The translations under genes were made by a program, and so were the position numbers. Positions 12,428 to 28,735 of a stretch of 64,000 nucleotides of DNA are shown piece by piece. Below the pieces are notes generated by a model. It saw only the letters and a program-made list of their open reading frames with translations. It made no database searches and was not told the DNA's origin. Source of the DNA: Candidatus Sulfotelmatobacter sp. (lineage in GTDB: Bacteria > Acidobacteriota > Terriglobia > Terriglobales > Acidobacteriaceae); NCBI GenBank assembly GCA_030041215.1, contig JASHOH010000136.1, forward strand, positions 124,001 to 188,000, written 5' to 3'. How positions within the stretch are numbered: position 1 is the stretch's first letter; each line of letters starts with the position of its first letter.

Positions 12428-13858
12428 CTACCGCGATACGGCGCCATCGTTGGAATGAAATAGGCGCATCAAGCCGCTGGGAGCCATGTCGGGCAAAGCC
12501 AAGTGAAGGGACTTCCCTACCGCGCGGGCCAGCGCTCCTGCCGCAAGATATCCGCTCCGCACGGCGCCTTCCATGGTGGCAGGCCAGCCGGTGGCGGTAA
12601 AGTCTCCAGCGAGAAATACGCGAGGCCAGCGTGTGCGCTGTTGCGGACGATAAATATCGATTCCCGGACGCGGGGAATACGTGGCGTGAAGTTCCTTGAT
12701 GACTGTTGACTTGACCAGGGTGGCGGCGCGCGCAGCTGGGAAGAACTCGCGAACTTCCTTCAGAGCAAGCTCGACAATTTCAGCGCGCGATTCGTCGATG
12801 AGGCTCTTCGAAGAGCTAACGACGAGCTCGATGTAGCTTCCCGCAGAATCATTGGTAGCACTTGCGCGCGACGTCAAGAGACGCGATTTGTGGAACATCC
12901 ATTGAATAGTGCGGTCGAGCAGGACGGCGTGGTCGAGATCGCTGATCTGGCGGTCGAACCAGAGGTGAATTCCGGTGATGGGCGAGGTTTCGAAGTGGCT
13001 GAGTTGTTCCCGCAATGGCTCGGCCTCTGGACTATGGGGAAGCACGCGCGCCAGACCATCGAAGGGCAGAGCCAGAATCAGATAATCGAAGGTTTCATCT
13101 TTTTCGCCCGCGCGAATGCGGACGTTTGACCCGCACGGCAAGAACGATTCCAGCGAAGTGCGGAAGAAAATTTCTCCTCGGCGGGCACGGATGTAATCCC
13201 CCGCACGATTGTAGAGATCAGTCAATGGAATGCTTGGAACGCCCATGTGCCGGGCCTCGGGCGTCTTCATCGATTCGCGAACTACCTGGGCGGCATAGGC
13301 AACCGAGATGAGATCGAGGTCCTCGCTCAAGGCGCTGACCAGGATCGGTTTCCAGAATCGCTGAATTGCGTTTTCGGTTTGTCGGTGCTGATGGCACCAT
13401 TGCAAAAACGATTCGCCTGTATCCGGCTGCCGCCTGAGTGTGAGTGCTGCAATCGCCCGTGCGATCGCCAGCTTGTCGGCTGCAGTGAGAAACGGAAATC
13501 GTAGAAATGAGGGCGCGGTGTGTAGCGGCGCGGGCAGCGGAGAAGCGCGGAGAACGCTCATGCGTCCGCCAGGCTCGATGAAGGTCATTTCGTTGTACCA
13601 GCGAATTTTGTCTTGCACGCCGATACGGCGGTAGAACTCAACGAGGTTCGTGCAAACGCGAAACAGCACGTGCTGGCAGTTGTCGACAACTTCGCCAGTG
13701 CTGGGATGTTCGTAAGAAGAGGCACGGCCGCCGAGATAGGGACGACGCTCATAGAGGGTCACGCGAAAGCCTGAGTCAGCAAGAACGCAGGCGGCGGCGA
13801 GGCCGGCGAGACCTCCGCCGGCGATGGCCACGCTGGGCTGGCTGGAAGATTCTGTCAT
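12428..13858 (-). CDS. hpnE: Hydroxysqualene dehydroxylase HpnE
   Basis: 476 residues. FAD-dependent amine-oxidase fold: dinucleotide-binding G14-G-G-L-A-G19, the FAD-ribose Glu37 in LYERR and GGR at 43-45; C-terminal FAD segment VFLAGDFTATGWPATMEGAV. HpnE reduces hydroxysqualene to squalene, the last step of the HpnC/D/E route. It is the final gene of the minus-strand hopanoid cluster, 121 bases after hpnD. Confidence 0.94.
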   Translation of the reverse strand: MTESSSQPSVAIAGGGLAGLAAACVLADSGFRVTLYERRPYLGGRASSYEHPSTGEVVDNCQHVLFRVCTNLVEFYRRIGVQDKIRWYNEMTFIEPGGRMSVLRASPLPAPLHTAPSFLRFPFLTAADKLAIARAIAALTLRRQPDTGESFLQWCHQHRQTENAIQRFWKPILVSALSEDLDLISVAYAAQVVRESMKTPEARHMGVPSIPLTDLYNRAGDYIRARRGEIFFRTSLESFLPCGSNVRIRAGEKDETFDYLILALPFDGLARVLPHSPEAEPLREQLSHFETSPITGIHLWFDRQISDLDHAVLLDRTIQWMFHKSRLLTSRASATNDSAGSYIELVVSSSKSLIDESRAEIVELALKEVREFFPAARAATLVKSTVIKELHATYSPRPGIDIYRPQQRTRWPRVFLAGDFTATGWPATMEGAVRSGYLAAGALARAVGKSLHLALPDMAPSGLMRLFHSNDGAVSR

Positions 13859-13979
13859 TCAAAGTTGTGGATCGCCCGCAGATGTTTGCAGCCGCAAGCG
13901 AACAGCAGGTTCCTCGCCCGTGCTTCGCTCGGGTTCGGAATGACATCAATTATGGAGTACTTGGTGAATCGGTGGATCA

Positions 13980-14927
13980 TCAGGTAAGCCGTTGGAAAAA
14001 GCCCTTCCCGAAAATGCGCAGCTTTTCAGTGACGGTAAGCGTTACTTTTCCGCTGAAGACGTCGTATTGGCGCTGGGCAATTTTGTCGAGCAGCTTGCGG
14101 TAGACATTTACCAGCACCCAGAGTGCAGGTTGGCTGTCTTCCGAAATGTAAGGAATCAACTCGTCGCCAGCCTGATAGAACTCGCGGGCGCGCGAGGCTT
14201 CGAGCTCGAGCAGTGGCCGAAAGCGGGCGGGATCGGGCGTGGAAAGAAGATCTGCGGCGGTGAGTCCAAATTGCGCGAGATCCTCCTGCGGAATGTAAAC
14301 ACGGCCCATGGCAGCATCTTCTTTCACGTCGCGGATGATGTTCGTGAGCTGAAAAGCCAAGCCGCATTGTTCGGCGAGAGATTCAGCCGCGGGATCGCGA
14401 TATCCAAAGACGTGAATGCAGACCAGTCCGACTACTGAAGCGACGTGATAGCAGTAGCTCTCGAGATCTTCGAAAGTTGCGTATTGAACAGTCAGGCCAG
14501 ATTCTGAAGGCGGAATGCTGGCTTCAGAAAGAGGCTCTGCCACATCCATGGCCGTGCCTAGAGCAAGATCGTCAAGCAGACCCGCAGGAATGTTGTACCG
14601 GCGTTGCACGTCGGTGAGCGCCATCAGAATCGCATCGTCATTCGGCTGGCCTTGCTGCGCGCGATGCAATGCGTCGAGCCAGTTATCGAGCCTCTGGCGG
14701 CGTTCGGGAAGGCTCAGGCTGGCGTCGTCGGCTATATCGTCGCAGCGGCGCATAAACGCATACACGGCACACAGGGCTTCACGCTTGCGCTTGGGTAAGA
14801 CCAGAAAAGCGTAGTAGAAATTTTTGGCGTTGGCGCGGGTGATGCCGCGGCAGACAGAATATGCCATGGCCAACTGCGCGGGAGCGGGAGTCCATGGGAC
14901 TAAGACCTGTTGTGCTCCCACGCTCAT
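13980..14927 (-). CDS. hpnD: Presqualene diphosphate synthase HpnD
   Basis: 315 residues of the squalene/phytoene synthase family. First Asp-rich motif D63-D-I-A-D-D68 and the second in NIIRDVKEDAAMGR bind the diphosphates through magnesium. HpnD condenses two farnesyl diphosphates to presqualene diphosphate. The order with hpnC upstream (4-base ATGA overlap) and hpnE downstream matches the standard bacterial squalene route and separates it from phytoene synthases. Confidence 0.94.
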   Translation of the reverse strand: MSVGAQQVLVPWTPAPAQLAMAYSVCRGITRANAKNFYYAFLVLPKRKREALCAVYAFMRRCDDIADDASLSLPERRQRLDNWLDALHRAQQGQPNDDAILMALTDVQRRYNIPAGLLDDLALGTAMDVAEPLSEASIPPSESGLTVQYATFEDLESYCYHVASVVGLVCIHVFGYRDPAAESLAEQCGLAFQLTNIIRDVKEDAAMGRVYIPQEDLAQFGLTAADLLSTPDPARFRPLLELEASRAREFYQAGDELIPYISEDSQPALWVLVNVYRKLLDKIAQRQYDVFSGKVTLTVTEKLRIFGKGFFQRLT

Positions 14928-15868
14928 AGCAGTTTTCCCACAGCGGCTTGGGCAACCAGTGCAAGTTTGCGCGGCTTAGAGATGACTGGACGGCGGCCAA
15001 GAACGGTAAAGTCCTGCCGCTCGATCGCGTTCAGGATTTCCTGGCCGCCGCGCGAGAAAAGCTCGATGTCGATCGCCAGTTCTTTGGCGACTTTGCCGGC
15101 TAGAGGCAATCCGCGCTCGAACCACTCGCGCGCACGAGCGACTTCAAATCTCATCAGAGCGCAGAACGCAGGGGTATTCCGGCTGCATAGGATGTCATCT
15201 TCGCCGACATTGAAGCGCCGCATATCTTCGAGCGGGAGATAGATTCGGCCCTTGGCATAATCGCGAGTCACGTCCTGCCAGAAGTTCGCGAGTTGCAGCG
15301 CCGTGCACGTGTAATCGGAAAGCTGCTGGCGCTCGGCATCGCGGTAGCCACAGAGATAGAGAACGAGATGGCCGACAGGATTAGCTGAGTACTGGCAATA
15401 AGCCAGCACGTCGGCAAAGCTTTCGAAGCGGGTGACAGTTTGGTCCTGCCGGAAGGCAATCAGCAGGTCAGAGAACTCGTGCTGGGGAATGTCGAACTTA
15501 CGCACGGTTTCGGCCAGCGCCACGAAAACTGGATGCCGCGGTGTGCCTTGATAGCAGGCCTGTAATTCGGATTGCCATTCGTCGAGAAGGGCGAGTGCGG
15601 CGGCGGGATCTCCGACTTCGTCGCCGAGATCATCGGAAATGCGACAGTAGGCGTAAACGTTGAAAAAATCCTGACGCAATCTTTTTGGCAAGAACCACGT
15701 GGCGACCGAGAAATTTTCGTAATGAGTGCGGGCAAGGCGGCGGCAATATTGTTGGGCTTCCTCCAGCGACGGAGCAATTTTCGGAATTAAGTAAGAAACA
15801 GGTAGGCGAGACCATCCATTTGTGATGGCAGTTTCGGCCTGACGGGTTTGGATCGCAGTGTTAGTCAC
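14924..15868 (-). CDS. hpnC: Hydroxysqualene synthase HpnC
   Basis: 314 residues of the same fold as HpnD, with the first Asp-rich motif D79-D-L-G-D-E84 in YAYCRISDDLGDEVGD and a second in NFWQDVTRDYAKGRIY; the THYENFSVATWFLPKRLR start is characteristic of HpnC. It converts presqualene diphosphate to hydroxysqualene. It is 100 bases downstream of a zinc dehydrogenase gene in the same direction and overlaps hpnD. Confidence 0.94.
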   Translation of the reverse strand: MTNTAIQTRQAETAITNGWSRLPVSYLIPKIAPSLEEAQQYCRRLARTHYENFSVATWFLPKRLRQDFFNVYAYCRISDDLGDEVGDPAAALALLDEWQSELQACYQGTPRHPVFVALAETVRKFDIPQHEFSDLLIAFRQDQTVTRFESFADVLAYCQYSANPVGHLVLYLCGYRDAERQQLSDYTCTALQLANFWQDVTRDYAKGRIYLPLEDMRRFNVGEDDILCSRNTPAFCALMRFEVARAREWFERGLPLAGKVAKELAIDIELFSRGGQEILNAIERQDFTVLGRRPVISKPRKLALVAQAAVGKLL

Positions 15869-15968
15869 GACTTATTTGGCGCCTAGGCTTCCGAGAGCGA
15901 GACGCCCTCGGGACAACCAGCAAAAACCTTCAACTCGCTCTGGGCAAGTGACGGCGCTACTTTCTACG

Positions 15969-17018
15969 CTAGTGCCCGGGAATGATGGCGGTTTTGATGT
16001 CGCCTCCGCGGTTGAGCATGTGACGCAAGACCTTCTGTAAGCTGGAAAGTGGAGCTTCTCCCGTAATGTAGTCGGTCGGACGAATTTTTTTTGCGGCGAT
16101 CAGGTCAAAGGCGCGGCGCACGGTTTCCGGAGTGTGATGGAAAGTGGCCTTGAGAGTGATCTCCGAGTAGTGCAGGCGATCGGTGTCGAGCTGCACCTGG
16201 GAGCCGCTGACGCATCCGCCGAAGAAATTTACCGTGCCGCCTTTGCGCACCATGTCGATGGCCCATTCCCAGGCATCTGGGCGTCCGACCGCTTCGATTA
16301 CCACATCACAACCGCGCTTTTGTGGAGTAAGGTTGCGAACGGCCCCTATCACATGCTGCGTCTTCGTGATCTGCACGATTTCATGCGCGCCCATCTGCTT
16401 GGCCGCGACAACCTGTTCATCGCGCTTGACGATCGAAATGACGTTGCAACCGATGGCACGGGCGACCTGAACAAACATTAGCCCAATTGGGCCACCGCCT
16501 ATGATAGCGACAGTGTCGCCGATTTCGACTCCGGTTTCGTGCAGTCCGCGAAGCACGCAGGCGAGAGGCTCGGTCATGGCTGCGTCTTCAAAGCTGATGT
16601 TCTGCGGAATCACCAGCATATTGGCTTCGACGATGCGCCGAGGCACGCGGATGTATTCGGCATACGCACCGTTGTTGAAGAGCAAGTCCTCGCACAGGTT
16701 TTCCTGGTGCTTGGAGCAGTAAAAACACATCTGGCAGGGCGCAGAGTTCAGCGCGACGACGCGTTGGCCTTTTCGAAAGCCGAGGACGCCTTCGCCGACT
16801 TCTTCGATCACTCCGGCGAGTTCGTGACCGAACAACGCGGGAGGCACAATCATGCGGGCGTGATAGCCGCGCTGGTAGACCTTGAGATCGGTGCCGCAGG
16901 TCAGCGCGACCTGCACCTTCACCAGCACCTCCCCCTTCTCCACGCGGGGGATAGGCACCTTTTCAATCTTAAGATCTTCTTTGCCGTAAAGAACGGCAGC
17001 GGTCATTTTTCCATTCAC
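15969..17018 (-). CDS. Zinc-dependent medium-chain alcohol dehydrogenase (second of pair)
   Basis: 349 residues, MDR superfamily, threonine/sorbitol dehydrogenase-like branch. Catalytic zinc ligands Cys41 (CGTDLK), His65-Glu66 (FGHELAG); four-cysteine structural zinc lobe in CQMCFYCSKHQENLC; NAD-binding GGGPIGLMFVQVA. Starts inside the stop of the preceding dehydrogenase (4-base overlap). Its place between hpnG and hpnC suggests oxidation or reduction of a hopanoid side-chain alcohol or aldehyde, but no such role is established for this protein. Confidence 0.85.
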   Translation of the reverse strand: MNGKMTAAVLYGKEDLKIEKVPIPRVEKGEVLVKVQVALTCGTDLKVYQRGYHARMIVPPALFGHELAGVIEEVGEGVLGFRKGQRVVALNSAPCQMCFYCSKHQENLCEDLLFNNGAYAEYIRVPRRIVEANMLVIPQNISFEDAAMTEPLACVLRGLHETGVEIGDTVAIIGGGPIGLMFVQVARAIGCNVISIVKRDEQVVAAKQMGAHEIVQITKTQHVIGAVRNLTPQKRGCDVVIEAVGRPDAWEWAIDMVRKGGTVNFFGGCVSGSQVQLDTDRLHYSEITLKATFHHTPETVRRAFDLIAAKKIRPTDYITGEAPLSSLQKVLRHMLNRGGDIKTAIIPGH

Positions 17019-18148
17019 TGCTGGGTTCCTTCCCGGGACTTCCAGTTCATGCCCGGCTGAATCACAATCTTCATGGACGAGGGCTGCGGATGGGCCGCCA
17101 GATCCAAAGCCCGCGGACTTTCTTCCAGCGAAAAACGATGGCTGATCAGCCGCTCCAGATCCAATTCGCGGTTCATCACAAAACGGACGGAATCCTCCTG
17201 CAAATCTACGGACGCGCTATATGAGCCTACGAGCGTCTTCTCATCGACGCAAATCACCGCCGGATCGATCACCACTTCGCCGCGCTGCGTTTGCGCAAAT
17301 AACAAGACTCTTCCGCCCGCTCGGGCGGCGTCCATAGCAGGCCGAATCAGGGCATTGCTGCCGACCGCCAAGATTATCGCGTCGGCACCTCGCCCGTCCG
17401 TCTGCTGACGCACAGCCTCGACGGTATCTCGCCGCGATGCGTCAATCCTTTGTTCAAATCCGAGGCTTTGGGTTATTTTAAGCCTCTCGGGGTATAAATC
17501 GGAAGTAATAACCGTGACCCCCGCCCGCCTTGCCAAGACACTCAAAATAATGCCGATAGGGCCTTGTCCGATGGTGAGAACAGTCTCGCCCGGTTCCAGA
17601 CGCAGCGCCTCGATGCCTTTCATGCAGGTGTTCACCGGCTCGACAAAGCAAGCCTGCTCGAATGAGACGTTATCGGGAATCTTAACGGTTCCCTGCTCGA
17701 CGACCCAATCCATGACGCGGACATATTCGGCGAACCCGCCGCCGGAAGGGTCGAATCCGGCCGTGCAACCGACCTTCTTGTAAGTGGCGCATTGGGCGAA
17801 GGTCTTGTGACGGCAGTAGTAGCACTGGCGGCACGGAATGTGATGGAAGACGACTACGCGATCCCCGGGAGCGAACTTGCGAACCCCTGCGCCAACCGTG
17901 GCTACCACGCCGGACGTTTCGTGTCCAAAAATGCGCGGAGCGGAGTGCGAGCCGGTAGCAATTTTCTTAAGATCAGTGCCGCAGACGCCGCAAGTATGCA
18001 CCCGCACCAGAAGTTCGCCCGGGCCGATTTGCGGCACGGGAACGGTCTCCAAGCGGACATCGTTAATCCCGCGATACACTGCTGCCCGCATCGTTGCAGA
18101 GATGGTCTGAGTTTGATCTTCTATGACGGCTTGTCGGGCAATACTCAT
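17015..18148 (-). CDS. Zinc-dependent medium-chain alcohol dehydrogenase (first of pair)
   Basis: About 377 residues, MDR superfamily. Zinc ligands in CGVCGTDLKK and FGHETSG, four-cysteine structural zinc site in CRQCYYCRHKTFAQC, nucleotide-binding GQGPIGIILSVLA. The start is placed at ATG 18148, one codon after an in-frame TTG; a later Met (MRAAVYRG, 18091) would also give a normal family N-terminus. It sits 18 bases after hpnG and overlaps the second dehydrogenase by 4 bases, so both belong to the hopanoid transcript. Substrate unknown. Confidence 0.85.
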   Translation of the reverse strand: MSIARQAVIEDQTQTISATMRAAVYRGINDVRLETVPVPQIGPGELLVRVHTCGVCGTDLKKIATGSHSAPRIFGHETSGVVATVGAGVRKFAPGDRVVVFHHIPCRQCYYCRHKTFAQCATYKKVGCTAGFDPSGGGFAEYVRVMDWVVEQGTVKIPDNVSFEQACFVEPVNTCMKGIEALRLEPGETVLTIGQGPIGIILSVLARRAGVTVITSDLYPERLKITQSLGFEQRIDASRRDTVEAVRQQTDGRGADAIILAVGSNALIRPAMDAARAGGRVLLFAQTQRGEVVIDPAVICVDEKTLVGSYSASVDLQEDSVRFVMNRELDLERLISHRFSLEESPRALDLAAHPQPSSMKIVIQPGMNWKSREGTQQ

Positions 18149-18166
18149 CAAAAGGATATCGATAGT

Positions 18167-18874
18167 TTATAACGTCTTAGCTTCAGCGACAGTACCCGGT
18201 TGGTACCTGTGCTTGCTCAGGTAGGCTGTCAGCGCTTTCGCCGCCTTGTTGCTGTTGCGTGCCAGCGTGATTACGCGGACCCAAAGCCAGGGACGGAGCG
18301 CGATGAAAATAACAAAGCTGGACGTCTTGAATCGTCCTTGTGCGTCGATGAAGCGATCCATCTCACACATTTCAAAGTTAAACCCATCAGAGATGACTTT
18401 TGTTGCGCGGAATTTGAGTCCCCGGGCACACGCTGCCGCGGCAACGGCAGTTGCCTCCATATCGACTGCGTGGGCGCCATAAGCCCGCGCGAGACTTGCC
18501 TTCTGCTTGGCGCCAGCGATGCTGCCAAAAGTAAGAAGCACGCGATTGCCAGGTTCAACTTCGATGCGGCTCCCGTCTCGCCCATCGATCACCGTGGAAG
18601 GCACAAGTATATCGCCGACGTGAAGGTCCGGCACAAGTGCTCCCGCAAAGCCAACCGAATGCAGCACCTCAGGATGGTACAGCGCAATAAGGGCTTCAGC
18701 TGCCCGGCGCGCTGGTTCGGCGCCGATTCCGCCACACACGATCACAAGATCGCCCTGCTCGTAGAAAGTGAACGTACGTCCTGCGTATTCTTTTTTCACC
18801 GCCCTGGCGTTCTTGAGGAGCGGCGTGACTTCGCGTTCGAGCGCGGCGATGATGGCGGTTTCAGGCATAGTCAT
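18167..18874 (-). CDS. hpnG: Adenosylhopane nucleosidase/phosphorylase HpnG
   Basis: About 235 residues of the purine nucleoside phosphorylase (MTA/SAH nucleosidase-like) fold. Hallmarks: IIAALEREVTPLLK at the N-terminus, HSVGFAGAL, and AVDMEATAVAAAA with the nucleoside-binding Glu, followed by the Asp of KVISDGFN. HpnG removes adenine from adenosylhopane, leading to ribosylhopane. The start at ATG 18874 overlaps the hpnA stop by 14 bases; ATG 18868 is equally possible. A longer reading from 18913 would overlap hpnA by 53 bases and is less likely. Confidence 0.9.
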   Translation of the reverse strand: MTMPETAIIAALEREVTPLLKNARAVKKEYAGRTFTFYEQGDLVIVCGGIGAEPARRAAEALIALYHPEVLHSVGFAGALVPDLHVGDILVPSTVIDGRDGSRIEVEPGNRVLLTFGSIAGAKQKASLARAYGAHAVDMEATAVAAAACARGLKFRATKVISDGFNFEMCEMDRFIDAQGRFKTSSFVIFIALRPWLWVRVITLARNSNKAAKALTAYLSKHRYQPGTVAEAKTL

Positions 18875-19847
18875 TTGCCCGGAACCATTCGACGGCGCGG
18901 CGCAGCGCGTCATCGACGGGGATTGTTTTCCAGCCCAGTTCGCGCTCGGCCTTGGCGGAACTAGCCCACATTTTCTTTTTGCCCATGCGCACAGTTTCGA
19001 TGGTAGCGCGCGGCTCGTGGCCGAGAATGCGTCCGGAAACGGTTTCGTCTACGGCAGCGGCGGCGTAGGCGACGAAGTACGGCAGCTTGATGGCGGGCGA
19101 GGGCAGGCCGGAGATCGCGGCCAGCTTGTCGAGAATTTGTTTGAGCGTGAGGTTTTCGCCGCCAAGAATGTATCGCTCGCCTGATCTTCCCTTCTCCAGC
19201 GCGGCAACGTGGCCGCGGGCACATTCGCGGACATCTACCAGATTCAGCCCTGTTTCAACATACGCCGGAAATTTTCGCTTCAGGAAATCGACCACGATGC
19301 GGCCGGTCGGAGTTGGCTTGATGTCGTACTCGCCGATGGGCGTCGTGGGATTGACGGTCACCACGCGCATTCCGCTGCGGCCGGCTTCGAGTGCAATCTG
19401 TTCGGCCATGAATTTCGAGCGCTTGTAGTGGCCGATCATGTCGGAGAGAGAAACGGGAGAATCTTCGTCGCCAGGTTGGCCGTTGCCGGTGAATCCGATG
19501 GTTGCGACGCTGGAGGTATAGACGACGTTCTTGATTCTGTTCTTGCGCGCGGCCGCGAGAATGGCGCGTGTGCCATCGATGTTCGAGCGGTACATTTCGT
19601 TTGGGTCGGTGACCCAGAGGCGGTAATCAGCAGCAACATGGAAAACTGTGTCGCAACCCGACATTGCTTTTTCAAGAGAAGCAGGATCGCGGAGGTCGCC
19701 GGTGGCGGTTTCGGCCTTGAGACCTTCGAGATTTTTCAAGTTGCTCGTCGGGCGGACCAGAAGGCGCAGGTTGGCGCCTTGGTCCGCGAGGGCGCGGGCT
19801 ACGTGGGAACCGAGGAACCCGGTGGCGCCAGTGAGGAAGATGGGCAT
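18861..19847 (-). CDS. hpnA: Hopanoid-associated NAD-dependent sugar epimerase HpnA
   Basis: 328 residues, extended short-chain dehydrogenase. N-terminal GATGFLGSHVARAL binds NAD(P); catalytic Ser near YTSSVATIG, and HYKRSKFMAE carries the YxxxK pair. The HpnA family accompanies hopanoid genes and is thought to act on the side chain or its sugar. An AGGGA lies 5-6 bases before the ATG. It directly follows the toxin-antitoxin genes and precedes hpnG with overlap. Confidence 0.92.
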   Translation of the reverse strand: MPIFLTGATGFLGSHVARALADQGANLRLLVRPTSNLKNLEGLKAETATGDLRDPASLEKAMSGCDTVFHVAADYRLWVTDPNEMYRSNIDGTRAILAAARKNRIKNVVYTSSVATIGFTGNGQPGDEDSPVSLSDMIGHYKRSKFMAEQIALEAGRSGMRVVTVNPTTPIGEYDIKPTPTGRIVVDFLKRKFPAYVETGLNLVDVRECARGHVAALEKGRSGERYILGGENLTLKQILDKLAAISGLPSPAIKLPYFVAYAAAAVDETVSGRILGHEPRATIETVRMGKKKMWASSAKAERELGWKTIPVDDALRRAVEWFRANDYA

Positions 19848-19853
19848 TGTTCC

Positions 19854-20216
19854 CTATGCGCCCGACCGAGCAGCAAAAGCTCTTTCCAGGCGGTCAAGAA
19901 CCGTCCGCCGTTTTCGCGGGTCTCGGGGCATGATTAGCGGGACAAAGTCGGCATCGATGGCATTTGCAATGCTTTGAACCCGCGATAGGGTTGCATTCCT
20001 GATGCGCCGATTGGAAAGATCGCGGGTGACGTTCCCACGAGGCATTCCCAGGGTGCGTGCCAAGTCGGCCAATTTCATATTGTTGCTTTCAAGCAGGTTA
20101 AGAACCTGCACCTCCAGCGCGAACTTCTTCCGCTCTGCCTCGTATGCCTGTCGAAATGATGGTCTCTCCATTTCCCGTTCAAACAGCGATGCAGCCTTAC
20201 TTCTGCTCTGACCCAT
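19854..20216 (-). CDS. HigA-like Xre-family antitoxin
   Basis: About 120 residues with a helix-turn-helix near the middle (MKLADLARTLGMPRGNVTRD, then LSNRRIRNATLSRVQSIAN), the DNA-binding fold of HigA antitoxins. ATG 20216 is chosen because AGGAA lies 7 bases upstream; this gives a 20-base overlap with the toxin stop. A longer in-frame start at 20300 lies inside the toxin gene. Toxin-first order is the HigBA arrangement, and the antitoxin usually represses the pair. Six bases separate it from hpnA, so hpnA may be read from the same transcript. Confidence 0.8.
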   Translation of the reverse strand: MGQSRSKAASLFEREMERPSFRQAYEAERKKFALEVQVLNLLESNNMKLADLARTLGMPRGNVTRDLSNRRIRNATLSRVQSIANAIDADFVPLIMPRDPRKRRTVLDRLERAFAARSGA

Positions 20217-20634
20217 AGTACGTTCCTGCCTTAATTCTCGTGAGGTAGTCTTTCTTCTTCGCAATTGTTGCCTTGATGTGCCGCTTTTCGCGCCGTCCAA
20301 CTTTCTGCGTCTGTTTCAAATATGTGTCACAGACAATGAACTTTTTGTTGGGCGCAAAGAACCCGAGATAACGGCCGTTAAATGGTTTGATCGCGTAAAT
20401 GCCCTCCGCTGCATCCTCTTCGTTGAACATCGTCTTTGGCAGCGGCTTACCCGGCGGATTGTCCGTCAGGTGCTCGACAATGTGGAACAGTCTCCGTTTT
20501 TCATCGTCCGAACGCTCGTTGTAAAAGTTCGCGGCGGGAATTTCTCCATCCGCGCTGAAGTAGAACTCGACCGTCAAATGCGATCCGGTCTTAACGACAT
20601 ACCGTGATGGATGGGGCGCGTGACCCAAAATCAT
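20197..20634 (-). CDS. RelE/HigB-like (phage Gp49-like) toxin
   Basis: 145 residues with a Gp49/HigB-type RelE fold: an early strand (LTVEFYFSADGE), a helix with EKRRLFHIVEHLTD, the strand pair EGIYAIKPFNGRYLGFFA and a basic C-terminus (QTQKVGRREKRHIKATIAKK) that in relatives cleaves mRNA on the ribosome. Its position with a HigA-like gene supports the call. It interrupts the otherwise hopanoid-only run between shc and hpnA. Confidence 0.78.
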   Translation of the reverse strand: MILGHAPHPSRYVVKTGSHLTVEFYFSADGEIPAANFYNERSDDEKRRLFHIVEHLTDNPPGKPLPKTMFNEEDAAEGIYAIKPFNGRYLGFFAPNKKFIVCDTYLKQTQKVGRREKRHIKATIAKKKDYLTRIKAGTYYGSEQK

Positions 20635-20749
20635 GTTATCACAAACGATAGCAGCGTCAAAGCCAAAGCGGAGCTTCGCCCCGGACAGCCGAGGGCGGCT
20701 GTCGCCACATGCTTATACTTGAAGGAAGCTAGCAGATCAGGTATCCGAT

Positions 20750-22717
20750 TTAGCCGCTCCCTTTTTCCATCACCTTCTGATACGTCGTCAGCGCCAGCAG
20801 CGGGAAGTACTGCCGATAGAGGTGATACTTCAGATAGAACACGCGGGGAAATCCGGTGCCGGTGAAGAATGGCTCGTCCCAGGAGCCGTCTTCTTTTTGT
20901 GTGCGCAACAGGTAGGCGATGCCGCGGGCCACGGAATCACTGCGCGTGTCACCGACGGCGAGCAGTCCCAGAATCGCCCATGCTGTTTGCGAGGGTGTGC
21001 TGTCGCCCACGCCGCGGAGGGTTGGGTCGTCATAGGAGCCGACGGTTTCGCCCCAGCCTCCATCGGAGTTCTGCACCATGCGCAGCCACTCGGCGGCCTG
21101 CTGGACCATCGGCTCGTGGCTGTCGACGCCGATTGCTTCGAGGCCGCGCAATACCAGCGCCGTGCCGTAGACGTAGTTCACGCCCCAGCGGCCGAACCAG
21201 CTGCCGTCGGGCTCCTGCTCGTCGCGAATAAATTGAATAGCGCGCTTTACGGCTGGATGATTCTGGTCGTATCCATAAGTCGCGAGCATCTCCAGAATGC
21301 GGCCCGTAATGTCGACCGTGGGCGGGTCGAGCATGGCGTTGTGGTCAGCGAACGGGATGTACTGAAAGACCATCTTGTCATTGTTCTTGTCGAACGACGC
21401 CCAGCCGCCGTTTTTGCACTGCATGGAGAAAATCCAGTCCATGGCCCGCTGCACGGATTCGCGCTGGTAGCGGCCATTGGGATGCTCGACGCGGCTCAGC
21501 GCCAGGCAAACCATCGCGCTGTCATCGACATCGGGATAAAACTCGTTGTTGAACTCAAAGTACCAGCCGCCCGGTTTACCCTTCTTGTTCTTGATCTGCC
21601 AGTCACCGGGATTGCGCACCTGTTTCTGCAAGATCCAGTCGGCACACTTGATCATGCGCGGATCGTTGGCGGACACTCCCGACTCAGCTAGCGCGAACAA
21701 GGCATAAGCAGTGTCCCACACCGGCGACATGCACGGCTGCATGCGGAACGTGTCTTTTTCTTCGATGCCCAGCTTTTCAAACTCATCCATCGCCCGAATG
21801 ACCTGCGGATCGTCGAGCGAATATCCCTGACAGCGCAGGGCGATAATGGCGTTCATCATCGAGGGATAAATTGCGCCCAAGCCATCGGACATCTCGAAGC
21901 GCTCCAGCATCCACTTCTCCGCCTTCTTCAGCGCGATCGAACGCAGCGGCCGGATGTGAACCCGCTCAAACCAGTGCGTCAGGCGATCGAAAACTAAAAA
22001 GAAGTTGCGCCAGGAAATCCGCTCTTTCGACCAGCGCAGATGCATGCGCGACTTCTGCATGCCGCCGACGAAGAGTTCTTCCACACCCATTTCGCGGGGA
22101 ATTTTCTTGAACGGCTTCTTGGCATAGCAAATCGAAAGCGGCACGAGGATTGCGCGCGACCACGAAGAAATTTCGTAGATGTTGAACCAGAACCAGTTGG
22201 GAAAGAGCACGATCTCGGGCGGGATGGCAGGAACGGCGTCGTAATCGTACTGGCCGAAGAAGCAGAGATAGATTTTGGTGAACGTGTTGACTTGGGTGAC
22301 TCCGCCCAGCTCAAGGATTTTCTTGCGAGCGCGCTGAAGAACCGGGTGATCGGCTTTATAGCCGGCAAGCTTAAGCCCGAAGTAGGCCTTTACCGAGGCG
22401 CTGATGTTCGAAGGTCCTGAGGCGTAAATGCTCCAGCCACCGTCTTCGTTCTGGTGACGGATGATCCAATTGGAGGCTTTCTGGAAGCGCTCCTGATTGC
22501 CTGTTCCCAAGAGCGAATGAAGGAGAATGTAATCAGATTCAAGCGTGGTGTCGGCCTCGAGTTCACCGCACCAGTAACCTTCTTCGTGCTGAAGTGACAA
22601 AAGGAATTTGCAGGCGGCATCGACCGCCGCGCCCGCACGGGTGCTTAGTTCGTCAATTTTGCCGAAACGAAGTTGAGGTTCGGATGTTATGTGGGAGTCG
22701 GGGGAGTTGGTGTCCAT
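20750..22717 (-). CDS. shc: Squalene-hopene cyclase
   Basis: About 655 residues, the usual length. The catalytic acid motif is D396-V-D-D399 in YPDVDDSAM; several QW repeats are present (NEDGGWS, KNGGWASF, EPDGSWFGRWG, NSDGGWGE, KEDGSWDEPFF). It cyclises squalene to hopene/hopanol at the inner membrane. ATG 22717 is chosen; an in-frame TTG at 22738 overlaps the ispH stop (TTGA) and would couple translation of the two. It is the core gene of the hopanoid cluster. Confidence 0.97.
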   Translation of the reverse strand: MDTNSPDSHITSEPQLRFGKIDELSTRAGAAVDAACKFLLSLQHEEGYWCGELEADTTLESDYILLHSLLGTGNQERFQKASNWIIRHQNEDGGWSIYASGPSNISASVKAYFGLKLAGYKADHPVLQRARKKILELGGVTQVNTFTKIYLCFFGQYDYDAVPAIPPEIVLFPNWFWFNIYEISSWSRAILVPLSICYAKKPFKKIPREMGVEELFVGGMQKSRMHLRWSKERISWRNFFLVFDRLTHWFERVHIRPLRSIALKKAEKWMLERFEMSDGLGAIYPSMMNAIIALRCQGYSLDDPQVIRAMDEFEKLGIEEKDTFRMQPCMSPVWDTAYALFALAESGVSANDPRMIKCADWILQKQVRNPGDWQIKNKKGKPGGWYFEFNNEFYPDVDDSAMVCLALSRVEHPNGRYQRESVQRAMDWIFSMQCKNGGWASFDKNNDKMVFQYIPFADHNAMLDPPTVDITGRILEMLATYGYDQNHPAVKRAIQFIRDEQEPDGSWFGRWGVNYVYGTALVLRGLEAIGVDSHEPMVQQAAEWLRMVQNSDGGWGETVGSYDDPTLRGVGDSTPSQTAWAILGLLAVGDTRSDSVARGIAYLLRTQKEDGSWDEPFFTGTGFPRVFYLKYHLYRQYFPLLALTTYQKVMEKGSG

Positions 22718-22734
22718 GAAATTTGGCGGCTCCG

Positions 22735-23715
22735 TCAATCTGCAGTCGCGCTGGCCGGAGCGGCGGCAATGGCCTCGACAATCTCCGGCGGCAGCCCGAA
22801 GCGCACGTTTTCCGGCATCACTTCGAGTTCCTGCACATTGTCAAAACCTTCTGTCGACAAAAACTTTATGGTCTCTTCTACCAGGCATTCGGGGGCGGAC
22901 GCGCCGGCGGTAAGCGCGATCGTGTTTACATTTTCCAGCCACGCGGAGTCGATGTCGTTGTAGCTGTCGATGAGATGCGCGTTCGTGCCCAGGTTGCGCG
23001 CCACTTCCACAAGACGGTTCGAATTCGAGCTGTTTTCTGAGCCGACAACCAGCAGCAGGTCGGATTCGGAAGCTACTTCCTTGACGGCAACCTGGCGGTT
23101 TTCGGTGGCGTAGCAGATATCCTGTGCGGCCGGTCCTTTGATGTTGGGAAACTTTTTCTTCAGCGCCGCGATGACATCTTTCGTTTCGTCGAGACTGAGC
23201 GTGGTTTGCGTGAGATAAGCGACGCGGTCGGGATCAGGCACCGTCAGGTCTCTTACCTGTTCGGGGTTGCCGACGACCTGGGTCACGAGCGGGGCCTCGC
23301 CGAGGGTTCCGATGACTTCATCGTGATCGTGGTGACCGATGAGAATGAGCGAATATCCTTCCTTGGCAAACTTCACCGCTTCGACGTGGACCTTAGTGAC
23401 CAGCGGGCAGGTCGCATCGATGACTCGCAGGCCGCGCCGCGCGCTATGCTCGCGCACTTCCGGAGAAACTCCGTGAGCGCTGTAGATGATGCGTTCGCCG
23501 TTGGGAACTTCGTCTTCGCTGTCAACAAAGATGGCGCCCTTGCGGCGCAGCTCATCAACGACAAAGCTGTTGTGAACGATCTCCTTGCGGACATAAATTG
23601 GCGGGCCAAAAGCTTCGAGTGCGATGCGAACCACGTCGATTGCCCGTACTACGCCTGCGCAAAAGCCGCGCGGTTTGAGCAAAAGCAGCTTCTTCGGCTG
23701 ATCCTTTGGTGACAC
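22735..23715 (-). CDS. ispH: 4-hydroxy-3-methylbut-2-enyl diphosphate reductase
   Basis: 326 residues with the three iron-sulfur Cys in PRGFCAGVVRA, DATCPLVTKVH and the later GASAPECLVEE region, plus the diphosphate-binding CYATENRQ and GSENSSNSNRL motifs. IspH makes IPP and DMAPP in the last MEP-pathway step. As first gene of the hopanoid cluster it likely boosts isoprenoid precursors for squalene; a second ispH elsewhere in the genome cannot be excluded. Confidence 0.96.
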   Translation of the reverse strand: MSPKDQPKKLLLLKPRGFCAGVVRAIDVVRIALEAFGPPIYVRKEIVHNSFVVDELRRKGAIFVDSEDEVPNGERIIYSAHGVSPEVREHSARRGLRVIDATCPLVTKVHVEAVKFAKEGYSLILIGHHDHDEVIGTLGEAPLVTQVVGNPEQVRDLTVPDPDRVAYLTQTTLSLDETKDVIAALKKKFPNIKGPAAQDICYATENRQVAVKEVASESDLLLVVGSENSSNSNRLVEVARNLGTNAHLIDSYNDIDSAWLENVNTIALTAGASAPECLVEETIKFLSTEGFDNVQELEVMPENVRFGLPPEIVEAIAAAPASATAD

Positions 23716-24031: not shown

Positions 24032-25339
24032 ATGCTCGACCGCCGTCATTTCTTATCGACTACCGCAACTGGACTTGGCGCGTCTCTTTCGCTGCAACAA
24101 AGCCTTTTCTCCCGCAAAAATTTTCTCGCGCAGTTAGAAACAATTCCGCCTTTGCCCGATCGCTCGCTCTACGACAAGAACGAAGACGCGTATTGGGCGG
24201 AGATGCGCAAGCAGTTTCTGATCCCGGAAGATGAGGTTTATCTGAATAACGGAACTGTGGGATCGAGTCCTGCGCCCGTGCTGCGCGCGGTGTTTGAGGG
24301 ATACGAGACGACTGAAAAGATGGACCAGCAGGATCCGGAAGATTATCCGATTTGGGGCTATGCGGCGTGGAACGAGTTTCGCGATCCCCTAGCCGAGTTT
24401 GTTGGCTGCACGCGCGACGAGCTGGCGCTCGTGCGCAACGCGACTGAGGCTAACAGCTACATTGCCAACGGGCTCGACATGAAGCCGGGTGATGAAGTGC
24501 TGATGACGGACCAGGAGCATCCGGGAGGCGAGCATCCGTGGAACCTGAAGGCCAAGCGCTATGGGATTGTGGTGAAGAAGATCACGCTGCCGCGTCCGGT
24601 GAAAGATGCAGGGCAGGTGCTGAACCTGTTTAACGACGGGATTGGGCCGAGGACAAAGGTGCTGTTCTTCAGCCACATCACAACGTTTTCTGGCGTGGTT
24701 TTGCCAGTGAAGGAGTTGTGCGCGCTGGCGCGGACGAAGGGGATTCTGTCGGCGGTGGACGGCGCGCACGTGCCCGGCATGATGCGGCTGAACGTGCGGG
24801 AGATTGGGTGCGATATGTATTCATCCAGTCCGCACAAGTGGCTGATGGCACCCAAAGGTTCGGGATTTCTGTATGTGCGTGACGAGGTGATCGACCGCGT
24901 GTGGAACACGATTGCGACCGAAGGCTGGGAAGAAACGAAGATTCGCGCGGAGAGATTTCAGCGCATCGGCAGCTCGAATGTGCCGGCTCTGTGGGGATTG
25001 CGAGCTTCGATCAAGCTGGCGAACGATATCGGGCTGGAGCGGATTGAGCGGCGCCATCGTGCGATGGCTGATTACATGTTGGCGGAGATGGCGAAGCGAG
25101 GAGCCGAGTCGTGGACGTCCCCTGATCCGGCCATGCGTTGTGCGATTGTGACCGTGAACGTGCCGGGCGTGCCGAGGATGGAGTTGGAGAACTGGCTGTG
25201 GAAGACGCATAAGATTCGGATTCGTGGCGGCGATCCGAATAAGCTACGGTTGTCGACACCGTATTATTTGCAGAGGAAGGATATTGAGAGGTTTTTGGCA
25301 GGGTTCGAGGAGTATAGGAAACTGCACAATTCGGCGTAA
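24032..25339 (+). CDS. Exported class V aminotransferase (isopenicillin N epimerase-like)
   Basis: 435 residues. The PLP Lys is K269 in SSSPHKWLMAPKGSG, and the cofactor-binding ATEANSY and DGAHVPG segments are present. The start at ATG 24032 follows AGGAGG closely and gives a twin-arginine-like leader, LDRRHFLSTTATGLGASLS, so folded export through Tat is likely. Isopenicillin N epimerase-like members act as epimerases, cysteine desulfurases or aminotransferases; the true substrate is unknown. Single gene, not coupled to a neighbour. Confidence 0.82.
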   Translation: MLDRRHFLSTTATGLGASLSLQQSLFSRKNFLAQLETIPPLPDRSLYDKNEDAYWAEMRKQFLIPEDEVYLNNGTVGSSPAPVLRAVFEGYETTEKMDQQDPEDYPIWGYAAWNEFRDPLAEFVGCTRDELALVRNATEANSYIANGLDMKPGDEVLMTDQEHPGGEHPWNLKAKRYGIVVKKITLPRPVKDAGQVLNLFNDGIGPRTKVLFFSHITTFSGVVLPVKELCALARTKGILSAVDGAHVPGMMRLNVREIGCDMYSSSPHKWLMAPKGSGFLYVRDEVIDRVWNTIATEGWEETKIRAERFQRIGSSNVPALWGLRASIKLANDIGLERIERRHRAMADYMLAEMAKRGAESWTSPDPAMRCAIVTVNVPGVPRMELENWLWKTHKIRIRGGDPNKLRLSTPYYLQRKDIERFLAGFEEYRKLHNSA

Positions 25340-25402
25340 AGCTGATCTAACGAAGACGCGGACAGGAGTGCCCGCGCCACACATGCATTGCTTCGCCAAC
25401 CG

Positions 25403-26923
25403 CTAGTCGTAGTATTCCAATCCCAAGTGGGTAATCAGTTCCTCGCCCTTCAAGTGCCGCAGGGTGTTCTTCAGCTTCATCAGTTGAATGAAGAGATCGT
25501 GCTCGGGATAGAGGCCGGGCGCAGTCATTGGCGACTTGAAGTAGAAGCTGAGCCACTCTTGAATCCCGATTCCTTTCAGTTCCGAGCAGCGCTGCGCGAG
25601 GTCCAACAGCAGAACGAGATCAAGAACGATCGGGGCGGCGAGTATGGAGTCGCGGCAGAGGAAGTCGACTTTAATCTGCATGGGATAGCCGAGCCAGCCG
25701 AAGATGTCGATGTTGTCCCACCCCTCTTTGTTGTCGCCGCGCGGCGGGTAATAGTTGATGCGGACCTTGTGGAACATTTTGCCGTAGAGGTCGGGATAGA
25801 GACTGGGCTGCAAGATGTGCTCGAGCACGCCTAGTTTTGACTCCTCCTTGGTTTTAAACGAGCCGGGATCGTCGAGGACTTCGCCGTCACGGTTGCCGAG
25901 GATGTTGGTGGAGTACCATCCGCTGAGGCCGAGCAGGCGCGCTTTGAACGCCGGGGCGAGAACGGTTTTCATGAGTGTTTGGCCAGTCTTAAAGTCCTTG
26001 CCGCAGATGGGGGCATCATTTTGCCGTGAGAGTTCGAGCATGGCGGGAATGTCAACTGTGAGATTTGGCGCGCCGTTGGCGAAGGGAATGCCTTCCTTTA
26101 GAGAGGCATAGGCGTAGATCATCGAGGGCGCGATCATTTCGTCGTTTTCGCGCAGCGCCTTCTCGAAGGACTTGACTGACTGGTGAGCCTCCGTGGGCTC
26201 GATGTAGGACTCCGTCGATGCGCACCACATCGTGATGAGGCGAGCGGCGCCAGTGGATTTCTTGAAGCTGCGAATATCGTCGCGGAGTTGCTCGGCGAGA
26301 TCCATTTTGTTTTTGCCCTTCTTCACATTGGGGCCGTCGATTTTCTTGACATAGTTGTGATCGAAGACGGCGGGGCGCGGAGTGATCTTCGACAGGAAGG
26401 GCTTGAGTTGATCGAGAAGGTACTGATCGAGGACGCCGGCGTTGGAAGCGGCCTCATACATGTTGTCTTCGAAGATATCCCACCCGGTGAAGACGAGATC
26501 ATCGAGAGCAGCAAGGGGGACAAATTCCTTGATTTTCGGCGAACGGCCGTCGGTGCGCTTGCCGAGCCGGACGGTGCCCATTTGCGTGAGCGAGCCGATC
26601 GGCTTAGCCAGGCCTTTGCGGATGGCTTCGACGCCGGCGACAAAGGTGGTGGCGACGGCACCCATGCCGGGAATCATGACCCCGAGTTTCCCCTTAGCCG
26701 GTTCAATTTGTGCTTTGGTGGCAGATTCTGTCACTCCTGTTGAGGCAGTTCTGCCACCTCCAGCCAGCTTGAGCACGCGGCTGGCCCGGACAGCATGCGT
26801 CATTGCGGTTTCGCGCTGCTCGTGCTGAAGTGCCGCCTTAGCGCTTGAAAACTGCTTGCGATGGCGGCGGCCGTCGGCGTCAGACCAATCAGCCATGTAG
26901 GCTCCGGGACGTTTCTGGTACAT
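25403..26923 (-). CDS. ino1: Inositol-3-phosphate synthase with integrase-like N-terminal extension
   Basis: 506 residues. The core (from about residue 80) has the NAD-binding GVMIPGMGAVATTF, the WCASTESYIEPTE motif, GKDFKTGQTLMKTVLAPAF with active-site Lys, and NILGNRDGEVL of myo-inositol-1-phosphate synthases (glucose-6-P to inositol-1-P). The first 40 residues (MYQKRPGAYMADWSDADGRR onward, then KQFSSAKAALQHEQRE) instead resemble the small beta-sheet arm-binding domain at the N-terminus of tyrosine recombinases. GGAAGG lies 6 bases before ATG 26923, so the extension is translated. Inositol supply for phospholipids or solutes is the likely role. Confidence 0.92.
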   Translation of the reverse strand: MYQKRPGAYMADWSDADGRRHRKQFSSAKAALQHEQRETAMTHAVRASRVLKLAGGGRTASTGVTESATKAQIEPAKGKLGVMIPGMGAVATTFVAGVEAIRKGLAKPIGSLTQMGTVRLGKRTDGRSPKIKEFVPLAALDDLVFTGWDIFEDNMYEAASNAGVLDQYLLDQLKPFLSKITPRPAVFDHNYVKKIDGPNVKKGKNKMDLAEQLRDDIRSFKKSTGAARLITMWCASTESYIEPTEAHQSVKSFEKALRENDEMIAPSMIYAYASLKEGIPFANGAPNLTVDIPAMLELSRQNDAPICGKDFKTGQTLMKTVLAPAFKARLLGLSGWYSTNILGNRDGEVLDDPGSFKTKEESKLGVLEHILQPSLYPDLYGKMFHKVRINYYPPRGDNKEGWDNIDIFGWLGYPMQIKVDFLCRDSILAAPIVLDLVLLLDLAQRCSELKGIGIQEWLSFYFKSPMTAPGLYPEHDLFIQLMKLKNTLRHLKGEELITHLGLEYYD

Positions 26924-27083
26924 AAGCAACCTTCCTTGGTGACAATCTTTGCTACCAAATTAGCCACCTGTATTGTCTCGCGAATAAGCCGCCGGCAGCA
27001 ACTAAAAGCAGCGGAACGCCCTTCGCGTGGAGATCCCCAGGAAATCGAGAGGGCCCCGCAAACGTTCGTTCAGGAGGACATGC

Positions 27084-27530
27084 TCATTTCTCATCGAGAT
27101 CAACTAGTTTGATGGGCAAGTCCCAGTGGGCGTCGAGAATTTCGAAGCGGCGTTGCTCTTCGCGGTGGAAGGTTTCCTGGTCTGGATAGAGTTCTTTTTG
27201 CAGGGCGGCTTCGTCAAAGAGCTCGTTGGCGACGGTAGCGTTCTTGAAGACGATAGTGACGCGGTAGTCCCAGCGGCCGTCTTCGGTGGTGTGGTAGCGG
27301 GGCTGGTCCATCCAGACCTTGGAGATGCGGCCAAGTTCGATCTCCTTCTTCAGAACGGGATAATGGTTTTTCTTGAAGAGCTTCAAGAATTCGTCGGCAT
27401 GTCCCCACTTGGTTTTGTAGTAGTACTCGACGACGAAGGGGCGGTCGGCATTGGCGGGGGCAGATTGAGCATGGCTGATGGATGGGAGCAGAATTGCGAG
27501 AAGCAGGACGGCGATCTGATAAATTCGCAT
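27084..27530 (-). CDS. Exported protein of unknown function
   Basis: 148 residues. Signal peptide MRIYQIAVLLLAILLPSISH with cleavage near HAQS, then a small domain (FVVEYYYKTKWGHADEFLKL; VTIVFKNATVANELFDE) whose strand-helix pattern is like the dimeric alpha/beta-barrel (NIPSNAP/monooxygenase-like) fold; this is only a pattern impression. AGGAGG sits 6 bases before ATG 27530, so a longer upstream reading is rejected. It lies upstream of the inositol-phosphate synthase on the same strand, with about 160 bases between. Confidence 0.65.
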   Translation of the reverse strand: MRIYQIAVLLLAILLPSISHAQSAPANADRPFVVEYYYKTKWGHADEFLKLFKKNHYPVLKKEIELGRISKVWMDQPRYHTTEDGRWDYRVTIVFKNATVANELFDEAALQKELYPDQETFHREEQRRFEILDAHWDLPIKLVDLDEK

Positions 27531-27788
27531 AGGTTCCTCCTGTGAAGTACGCTTGTACACGATTTCGGACAAGAAGAAAAGCTTAGACCACCGAAAGCAC
27601 GGGGTTCATGGGGCATGCCTTACCAACTTGGCGGGAGTGGCAGATTGTGGCGTCGCAGTTGGTACGGGTGTAGAGGAACGCGGTGATTTTTCAGCGGCCG
27701 TGCTGATAGAGACACTTCGTAAGGTAACTCCAAGAGCTGGCGCTTGTTGGGATGACCTCCCCGTGGGTTATTAGTTCAGGAGTATCGA

Positions 27789-27989
27789 TTATTTGCGAAG
27801 GGACCAGCCCGTGCCAACGAGCCAGCCCAGGACGATTGACGCGATCACAAACTCAACCATGCCCCGCCAAACGAAGCCAATTCCCGTGGCTTTTTGTTTC
27901 AAAAGTTGCAGCGCAGCGATAGCAAGACGAACAATCAGGGCCATGCCGCAAAGACCAATTGAAATAGCGACAGTCTTCGAGGACGACAT
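27789..27989 (-). CDS. Small two-helix membrane protein, unknown
   Basis: 66 residues with two hydrophobic helices (TVAISIGLCGMALIVRLAI and MVEFVIASIVLGWLVGTGW) joined by a short basic loop. A GGAG 5 bases before ATG 27989 supports translation. It begins 26 bases after the dedA stop on the same strand and may be co-transcribed with it. No family is recognised. Confidence 0.5.
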   Translation of the reverse strand: MSSSKTVAISIGLCGMALIVRLAIAALQLLKQKATGIGFVWRGMVEFVIASIVLGWLVGTGWSLRK

Positions 27990-28014
27990 GGCGACTCCAG
28001 CATGATCGGACTTT

Positions 28015-28656
28015 CTAACGCCCGGGGGCTGACGCCTGACGTCCAACCCGGTTTTGCCAGTGACTCCAGATGAACCACGCGACACCGGCGATCAGCGCCG
28101 CCATAATCACGGCATCGAATTTGTGGAAGTACCTCGCGAGCGAGCGCCAGTTTTCGCCGAGCTTCATGCCGAGCCAGGCCAAGCCGAGGCACCAGGGCCA
28201 CGAGCCAAGAAAGGTATAAATGTGAAAGCGGCCGCGAGGCATGCGGGCAATGCCTGCAGGCAGAGCGATGAAGGTGCGGATGACGGGAAGCAGGCGACCG
28301 AGGAAGACTGCGAGGTATCCCCAGCGCTGAAAAAAACGGTCGGCGGCGTCGAGTTCGCGGCGACCCATGAGAATCCAGCGGCCGTAACGCTCGACCAGAG
28401 GTCGTCCGCCGTAGCAGCCGATTTCGTACGCCACGAGCGAGCCCAGATTGCAGCCCAGCGCGCCCGCTGTTGCGGCCCAGAGCAGCTTGAATGTGCCGGT
28501 GTAAACCAGGTATCCGGCGAAGGGCATGATGAGCTCGGAAGGCAGCGGGATGCAGGCCGATTCAATCGCCATAAGCACCACGATTCCGATATAGCCGGTC
28601 GTCGCGATGACGGAGTTGATAAAAACGAAGATAACAGCGAGAAGTTTTTCAGTCAT
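28015..28656 (-). CDS. DedA family membrane protein (VTT domain)
   Basis: 213 residues with the DedA hallmarks: the amphipathic EsACIPLPSELIMPFAG entry segment with its conserved Glu and Pro, and the FLGRLLPVIRTFIALPAGIARM segment with the paired Arg. DedA proteins are inner-membrane scramblase/transport proteins, members of which recycle undecaprenyl phosphate or move phosphatidylethanolamine. A 17-base inverted repeat ends 6 bases before the ATG. Confidence 0.88.
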   Translation of the reverse strand: MTEKLLAVIFVFINSVIATTGYIGIVVLMAIESACIPLPSELIMPFAGYLVYTGTFKLLWAATAGALGCNLGSLVAYEIGCYGGRPLVERYGRWILMGRRELDAADRFFQRWGYLAVFLGRLLPVIRTFIALPAGIARMPRGRFHIYTFLGSWPWCLGLAWLGMKLGENWRSLARYFHKFDAVIMAALIAGVAWFIWSHWQNRVGRQASAPGR

Positions 28657-28662
28657 GAAAGC

Positions 28663-28735
28663 AGTTGCCAGTTCTCAGTTCTCGGTTGTTAGTTATCAGG
28701 AAAAAAGCGCACCTTAGGACTGAGAACTGGCAACT
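28663..28735. repeat. Perfect 17-bp inverted repeat in front of dedA
   Basis: AGTTGCCAGTTCTCAGT (28663-28679) and its exact complement (28719-28735) are separated by 39 bases. In the dedA message the stem would end 6 bases before the start codon, covering any ribosome binding site. Extra partial copies of the unit lie in the loop and on to 28745, so it looks repeat-derived. Confidence 0.7.

Follow-up and report, generated by a model that had tools for sequence, protein, structure and literature searches.

Inositol-3-phosphate synthase (MIPS) is a metabolic enzyme, and in one genome of Candidatus Sulfotelmatobacter its gene opens with a segment that resembles the DNA-binding end of an integrase; where does this segment come from, and what might it do on an enzyme? 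The window analysed here is a stretch of 64,000 nucleotides (contig JASHOH010000136.1, positions 124,001 to 188,000), and the gene occupies 25403..26923 of its minus strand (506 codons plus stop), with the ATG at 26923 and the stop codon at 25403-25405. A Shine-Dalgarno-like AAGGAAGG, assigned from the sequence, lies at 26930-26937 (minus strand), its 3' end six bases upstream of the ATG. The protein begins with an arm-binding (AP2-like) module of 52 residues (residues 1-52, 26768..26923, minus strand, MYQKRPGAYMADWSDADGRRHRKQFSSAKAALQHEQRETAMTHAVRASRVLK), delimited by conservation, homology and predicted fold, which is followed by a variable linker of 25 residues (residues 53-77, 26693..26767, minus strand) and by the MIPS catalytic core of 429 residues (residues 78-506, 25406..26692, minus strand), assigned by Pfam. 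From residue 80 onward the protein matches PF07994 (3.1e-105) and PF01658 (3e-32) over positions 1-321 of 321 and 1-107 of 107 of the respective models. By Pfam both MIPS domains (NAD-binding and Inos-1-P_synth) are thus complete, as in a full metabolic enzyme, whose activity is inferred. The closest solved chain to the core is 7nwr (1.4e-161). A structure model of the full-length protein was poor (pLDDT 38, the alignment being too shallow), and so the placement of the module on the enzyme cannot be derived from it. Elsewhere in the window, the genes at 12428-23715 resemble a hopanoid and isoprenoid cluster; the names squalene-hopene cyclase, HpnA, HpnC/D/E and IspH were assigned there by eye alone.

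Genome searches with a profile of the module return N-termini of tyrosine recombinases. Matches are present in 39 of 399 genomes of the class, a count that admits E-values of 0.01 or lower and includes weak hits, and in 54 of 398 genomes of the family, MIPS fusions being counted in both, and in 7 of 396 genomes of a phylum sample, where the two that fall outside the family are both weak. The recombinase relative most similar to the window module is 61% identical to it (L043), and PF00589 was present in all ten recombinase open reading frames tested. The integrase family phrog_11531 of PHROGs was matched by 24 of 29 domain rows, the window module scoring 0.0025. Pfam gave the window module a weak AP2 signal (0.012, under the model cut-off), Arm-DNA-bind_4 was found in one of the 29 domain members, at 0.44, and viral contigs contained one weak relative. 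By sequence, then, the module is related to the arm-binding domain of Terriglobia tyrosine recombinases.

The fold of the module is a model prediction: three strands and a helix (E3-5 E8-14 E20-25 H28-55) at a mean pLDDT of 82. When Foldseek matches were re-aligned, the N-terminal DNA-binding domain of Tn916 integrase (1bb8) came fifth, at 1.6 A over 44 residues and Z 3.8, a value also attainable from a common structural arrangement; the best PDB row was a T. gondii mitoribosomal protein (Z 5.0). In the Foldseek search of the PDB the best E was 0.66 and no integrase appeared within the 50 rows shown, while among viral structures two phage proteins named integrase ranked 3 and 19 with E-values above 0.2. 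Searching PDB sequences with the domain profile returned nothing, or two short chance-like matches, none convincing. Because a fold this small yields only weak scores, the homology claim leans on sequence first, and that MIPS here carries a separate DNA-binding domain rests on homology and predicted fold only, without binding data. An earlier sequence-only reading had proposed a MIPS fused to an integrase-like N-terminal domain, which held (Pfam core, conserved module, recombinase relatives). It had also named two things to look for, a three-stranded sheet plus helix and homologues with the extension; the former was found in the predicted structure, at a Z to 1bb8 of only 3.8, and the latter in the genomes described below.

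A MIPS with the module, defined by a gap-free N-terminal match, is encoded in 19 of 45 Candidatus Sulfotelmatobacter genomes. The module profile matches in 20 of the 45, the match in G027 being on a non-MIPS protein in a genome whose own MIPS is truncated at a contig end, and G017 has the module twice. At E 0.001, 18 of the 19 module-bearing genomes contain no copy of the domain other than the MIPS module. The MIPS-type module is present in 17 of 19 named loci, 16 of which aligned as full MIPS; 11 of these 17 records are titled Candidatus Sulfotelmatobacter and the rest Acidobacteria, Acidobacteriaceae or Terriglobia. In 171 pairwise comparisons of the 19 genes, pN/pS is 0.138 in the module (first 150 nt) versus 0.072 in the core (429 residues), with pS values of 0.70 and 0.62, that is, with synonymous sites near saturation, and the module is therefore under purifying selection. 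MYQK is unchanged across 17 aligned rows, and the basic residues R20, H21 and R22 are unchanged across 20. This conservation shows that the module is translated; the ribosome-binding site, which had been claimed as proof that the N-terminal part belongs to the gene, merely makes the start likely, and that claim held only in part.

Fifteen MIPS genes without the module were examined, 13 in the genus and 2 elsewhere in the order. The 13 genus genes are readable and start with 'MAT..' followed by a lysine-rich tail; in the rest of the 45 genomes MIPS is absent, truncated at a contig end, or outside the examined set. One match in a module-free genus genome (L155) proved a false positive once its sequence was read. 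In a tree of the MIPS core the module label needs four changes, at least three of them forced by supported branches, so that losses or exchange of the 5' end must have happened, and gain cannot be distinguished from loss on this tree. In the domain tree the genus MIPS modules form a single clade (99/96); this tree is built on just 44 columns, with bootstrap values that had not converged. From these trees we infer that the genus acquired the module once and that losses or 5'-end exchange came later.

Upstream of the gene lies a candidate operator, the inverted repeat GGTAGC-N7-GTCACC (26938..26956, minus strand), which has one mismatch to GGTGRC-N7/8-GYCACC, with an additional half-site GGTGGC farther upstream (26963..26968, minus strand). 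Within the final 80 nt before the start, GGTGRC-N7/8-GYCACC is exact in 17 of the 19 module-bearing genes and present in all 19 at one mismatch or fewer, just 5' of the ribosome-binding site and with a spacing of 7-8; the L090 leader has two half-sites in each arm. The two one-mismatch leaders are those of the window and L015, and the window leader, with GGTAGC in place of GGTGRC, is among the two weakest of the set. The repeat was found in none of the 15 module-free genes, where the best match has 3-5 mismatches, and in shuffled leaders a mean of 0.08 genes had it at one mismatch. An open count of 6-mers over 75 nt put GGTGGC and GGTGAC at the top in MIPS leaders (18 of 19 each); in 200 shuffles the largest count of any 6-mer was 7 for MIPS leaders and 11 for recombinase leaders. 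Co-occurrence of the repeat with the module, 19 of 19 versus 0 of 15, is thus shown; its role as an operator is inferred, and there are no binding data. The module is the natural reader of the repeat, since 18 of the 19 genomes yielded no other copy of the domain. The suggestion of the sequence-only reading that the extension binds DNA or serves as a regulatory module is supported by this matched repeat, the binding itself being inferred.

Being orthologues, the 19 genes do not give independent leader counts, and other conserved words recur in as many as 13 of the 15 module-free leaders. Near -80, 13 of the 15 module-free genes (all 13 of the genus) match a promoter-like element, versus 8 of the 19 module-bearing ones, the window leader having no match to it; as the element matches and the two groups differ after it, the downstream stretch was exchanged in at least those 8. 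The module-free MIPS leaders of the genus (L016-L028) have a common conserved element, GTTTGCACATCCAT..GATTCTTACTGAGGAAGCGG, from about -45 to -1.

Recombinases with the domain have related half-sites in their leaders. The top 6-mer there is GGTGTC, in 27 of 32 leaders, and it occurs in one of the 19 MIPS leaders; recombinase leaders show no enrichment of GGTGRC (8 of 32, against a mean of 4.5 and a maximum of 10 in shuffles), GGTGAC being found in a few, e.g. L040, L140, L146 and L152. The recombinase half-site and the GGTGRC of genus MIPS leaders agree at only five of six positions. The 32 recombinase leaders divide into 16 with same-direction sites (15 of them spaced 10-12 bases), 7 with opposed sites, 5 with a single site and 4 with none, whereas the sites of MIPS leaders are opposed, the arrangement to be expected from joint binding by two modules of one oligomer.

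A form with three half-sites was located in 14 of the 45 genus genomes. Eleven of these bear the module and have the form only at their own MIPS leader; the other three, without a detected module, have it at one non-MIPS place each, and the form is absent from the remaining 8 module-bearing genomes, among them that of the window. A search for a regulon in a single genome by the two-half-site pattern was dropped because the pattern is too short, with 20 matches in the window's genome versus 13 for a control pattern. Inside the coding sequence, half-sites are in excess in the linker (26 versus 5.5 expected by synonymous resampling; none of 500 resamplings as high), not enriched in the core (23 versus 26 expected) and rare in the module (2 versus 10.8 expected). 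The linker coding sequence of the window gene also contains a perfect 9-bp inverted repeat, GGTGGCAGA..TCTGCCACC (26717..26758). It was considered as a common mobile repeat and rejected, its pattern matching only here in the genome.

We consider it likely that this MIPS is a trigger enzyme that regulates its own gene and took its DNA reader from an integrase. That the module is fused to MIPS, is conserved, is homologous to recombinase domains and co-occurs with the repeat is shown, and its fold is predicted by a model; binding, repression and the signal are inferred. In this reading an ancestor of part of the genus would have captured a recombinase arm-binding domain 5' of its MIPS gene, and the domain probably brought its leader sites along. 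The three-stranded sheet of integrases lies in the major groove of DNA, and the sheet and helix of the module may still read a GGTGNC half-site. MIPS is an oligomer, and so two modules could bind GGTGRC-N7/8-GYCACC together, perhaps along with weaker sites in the part of the gene that encodes the linker. The repeat would be occupied, and mips repressed, whenever the enzyme is abundant or without substrate. Such transcriptional repression of its own gene is the probable outcome by analogy with PutA, and it too is without binding data.

The main rival to autoregulation is a leader RNA hairpin that controls translation or mRNA stability, with the module kept for oligomer contacts or RNA binding. 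In its favor, two of the three leaders folded gave strong hairpins (z -5.5 and -5.0), although only 3 of the 19 leaders were folded. Against it, the L089 leader folds no better than its shuffles (z 0.97), and its arms, GGTGAC and GCCACC, would leave an A-C mismatch in a hairpin, yet they are two good half-sites; in several genes (e.g. L008, L012, L014, L080) the two arms differ at the fifth position of the half-site, one having A and the other G. Recombinase genes that encode the domain also have similar half-sites in front of them, all 19 MIPS leaders contain the DNA half-sites, and Rfam has no match in 25000-28700 of the window. We regard this explanation as unlikely. It is likewise doubtful that an inserted mobile unit left behind the module and its flanking repeats, the module persisting as a harmless or structural extension with no role at DNA. 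Half-sites do flank the module on both sides, and other integrase relics adjoin or enter host genes (L031 beside a tRNA gene, and L151), but the pN/pS of 0.138 over 19 genes with near-saturated synonymous sites, the invariance of R20, H21 and R22 in 20 rows, and the retention of the repeat in 19 of 19 genes at a spacing of 7-8 speak against it. That MIPS, through the module, regulates more widely or is bound to the nucleoid, acting beyond its own gene, is very improbable, since nothing direct supports it, two-half-site matches being common by chance (20 versus 13 for the control in the window's genome), and in the 11 module-bearing genomes that have the three-half-site form it occurs only at the mips leader.

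Autoregulation by MIPS would resemble the known trigger enzymes PutA, NadR, BirA, PepA and PyrH, which likewise combine a metabolic enzyme with DNA binding and gene control, the latter two being inferred for MIPS. PutA binds only beside its own gene (PMC8249747). PutA uses a ribbon-helix-helix for this, and BirA and NadR use a helix-turn-helix; the trigger enzymes in the sections of PMC8249747 that bear on them include no MIPS and no integrase-derived reader. The N-terminal domains of integrases bind arm-type sites (PMC3203893), and the MIPS module is like the AP2-like arm-binding domain of Tn916 Int and lambda Int in sequence family, predicted fold, size, N-terminal position and repeats beside the gene, but unlike in these integrases it stands on an enzyme without a recombinase core. 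As an Ino1/MIPS, the window protein has a complete core with both Pfam domains and departs from the usual form in its N-terminal module, where the 13 module-free genus genes have the lysine-rich tail instead. In the open-licence literature searched, a DNA-binding fusion of MIPS is not described. If the reading is true, an enzyme became a regulator by taking a DNA reader together with its sites from a mobile element, and because the module, the candidate operator and module-free sisters coexist in one genus, the origin of an autoregulatory circuit is directly testable there.

How the domain could become available for capture is suggested by its organization in recombinases. A recombinase core lies within 600 nt downstream of the domain in 37 of 47 distinct domain loci, and relative to the domain its frame is -1 in 32 of the 37 (L038-L057 except L053; L059, L110, L116, L124, L136, L137, L139-L141, L143, L144, L146 and L152), the same in 4 and +1 in 1. 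Among the in-frame loci, the domain scores of L153 and L154 are weak, and L032 is disrupted, its middle portion lying in the -1 frame. Of the 32 -1-frame loci, 27 have near the crossover, at 100-150 bases, a slippery heptamer in the correct phase (A-AAA-AAN, C-CCA-AAN or G-GGA-AAN), versus 16 of 64 in the other two phases; L040 has A-AAA-AAA, and L041 has C-CCA-AAA and A-AAA-AAG. An ATG, GTG or TTG in the new frame lies within the overlap in 10 of 32. Inferring from sequence alone, we think programmed -1 frameshifting the probable arrangement, whose product would be the domain alone or the complete recombinase; it remains possible that the two parts have starts of their own. Frameshifting in tyrosine recombinases is not described in the open-licence literature searched. 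If real, it would explain the exon-like behavior of the domain and may explain its further captures, and it points to frameshift-decoded tyrosine recombinases with a DNA reader as a separable product. The 'exon-like piece' of the sequence-only reading is nearly literal, as the domain is in a different frame from the catalytic part in 32 of 37 recombinases. At L142 a protein of about 100 residues joins the domain to an unrelated in-frame tail, and a recombinase core was not found.

The domain is fused to other proteins as well. In a one-genome genus of the same family, a second MIPS has a diverged in-frame module upstream (L148:590-2173), preceded by an 11-bp inverted repeat, AGAGGTGTCGG..CCGACACCTCT, that contains the recombinase-type GGTGTC. 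An ATG (785) is kept at the usual MIPS start with the purine-rich GGGAAAGGAAACC before it, so the module may lie in an upstream frame of its own, and the locus is possibly a fusion still forming. A MoaC (PF01967, 5.9e-49) with an in-frame module (L145; G090:C5, near 484290-484412, minus strand) was read in one genome only, of a genus in which 8 of 62 genomes have any domain match. At L031:700-1347 (minus strand) the module is fused to a protein without a Pfam match; this locus adjoins a tRNA-Val gene, and a CDP-alcohol phosphatidyltransferase-like gene, named by eye, lies downstream. No intact half-site precedes the start codon of L145 or L031. The domain tree does not reject a shared origin of the genus modules with that of the second MIPS (AU p 0.37), nor one of all fusions (p 0.15), so that independent capture cannot be demonstrated. 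A bolder joint reading, which we would neither favor nor discount, is that mobile-element integrases of Terriglobia make their arm-binding domain as a short protein of its own, the catalytic part being translated only after a programmed -1 frameshift, and that this free-standing DNA reader with its leader sites has been captured repeatedly by metabolic genes (MIPS, second MIPS, MoaC), with the Sulfotelmatobacter MIPS a single-target autoregulator that senses inositol synthesis. At L151, a recombinase remnant, the domain frame runs into a NUDIX-hydrolase-like gene, identified by eye, and this too may be a fusion in the making.
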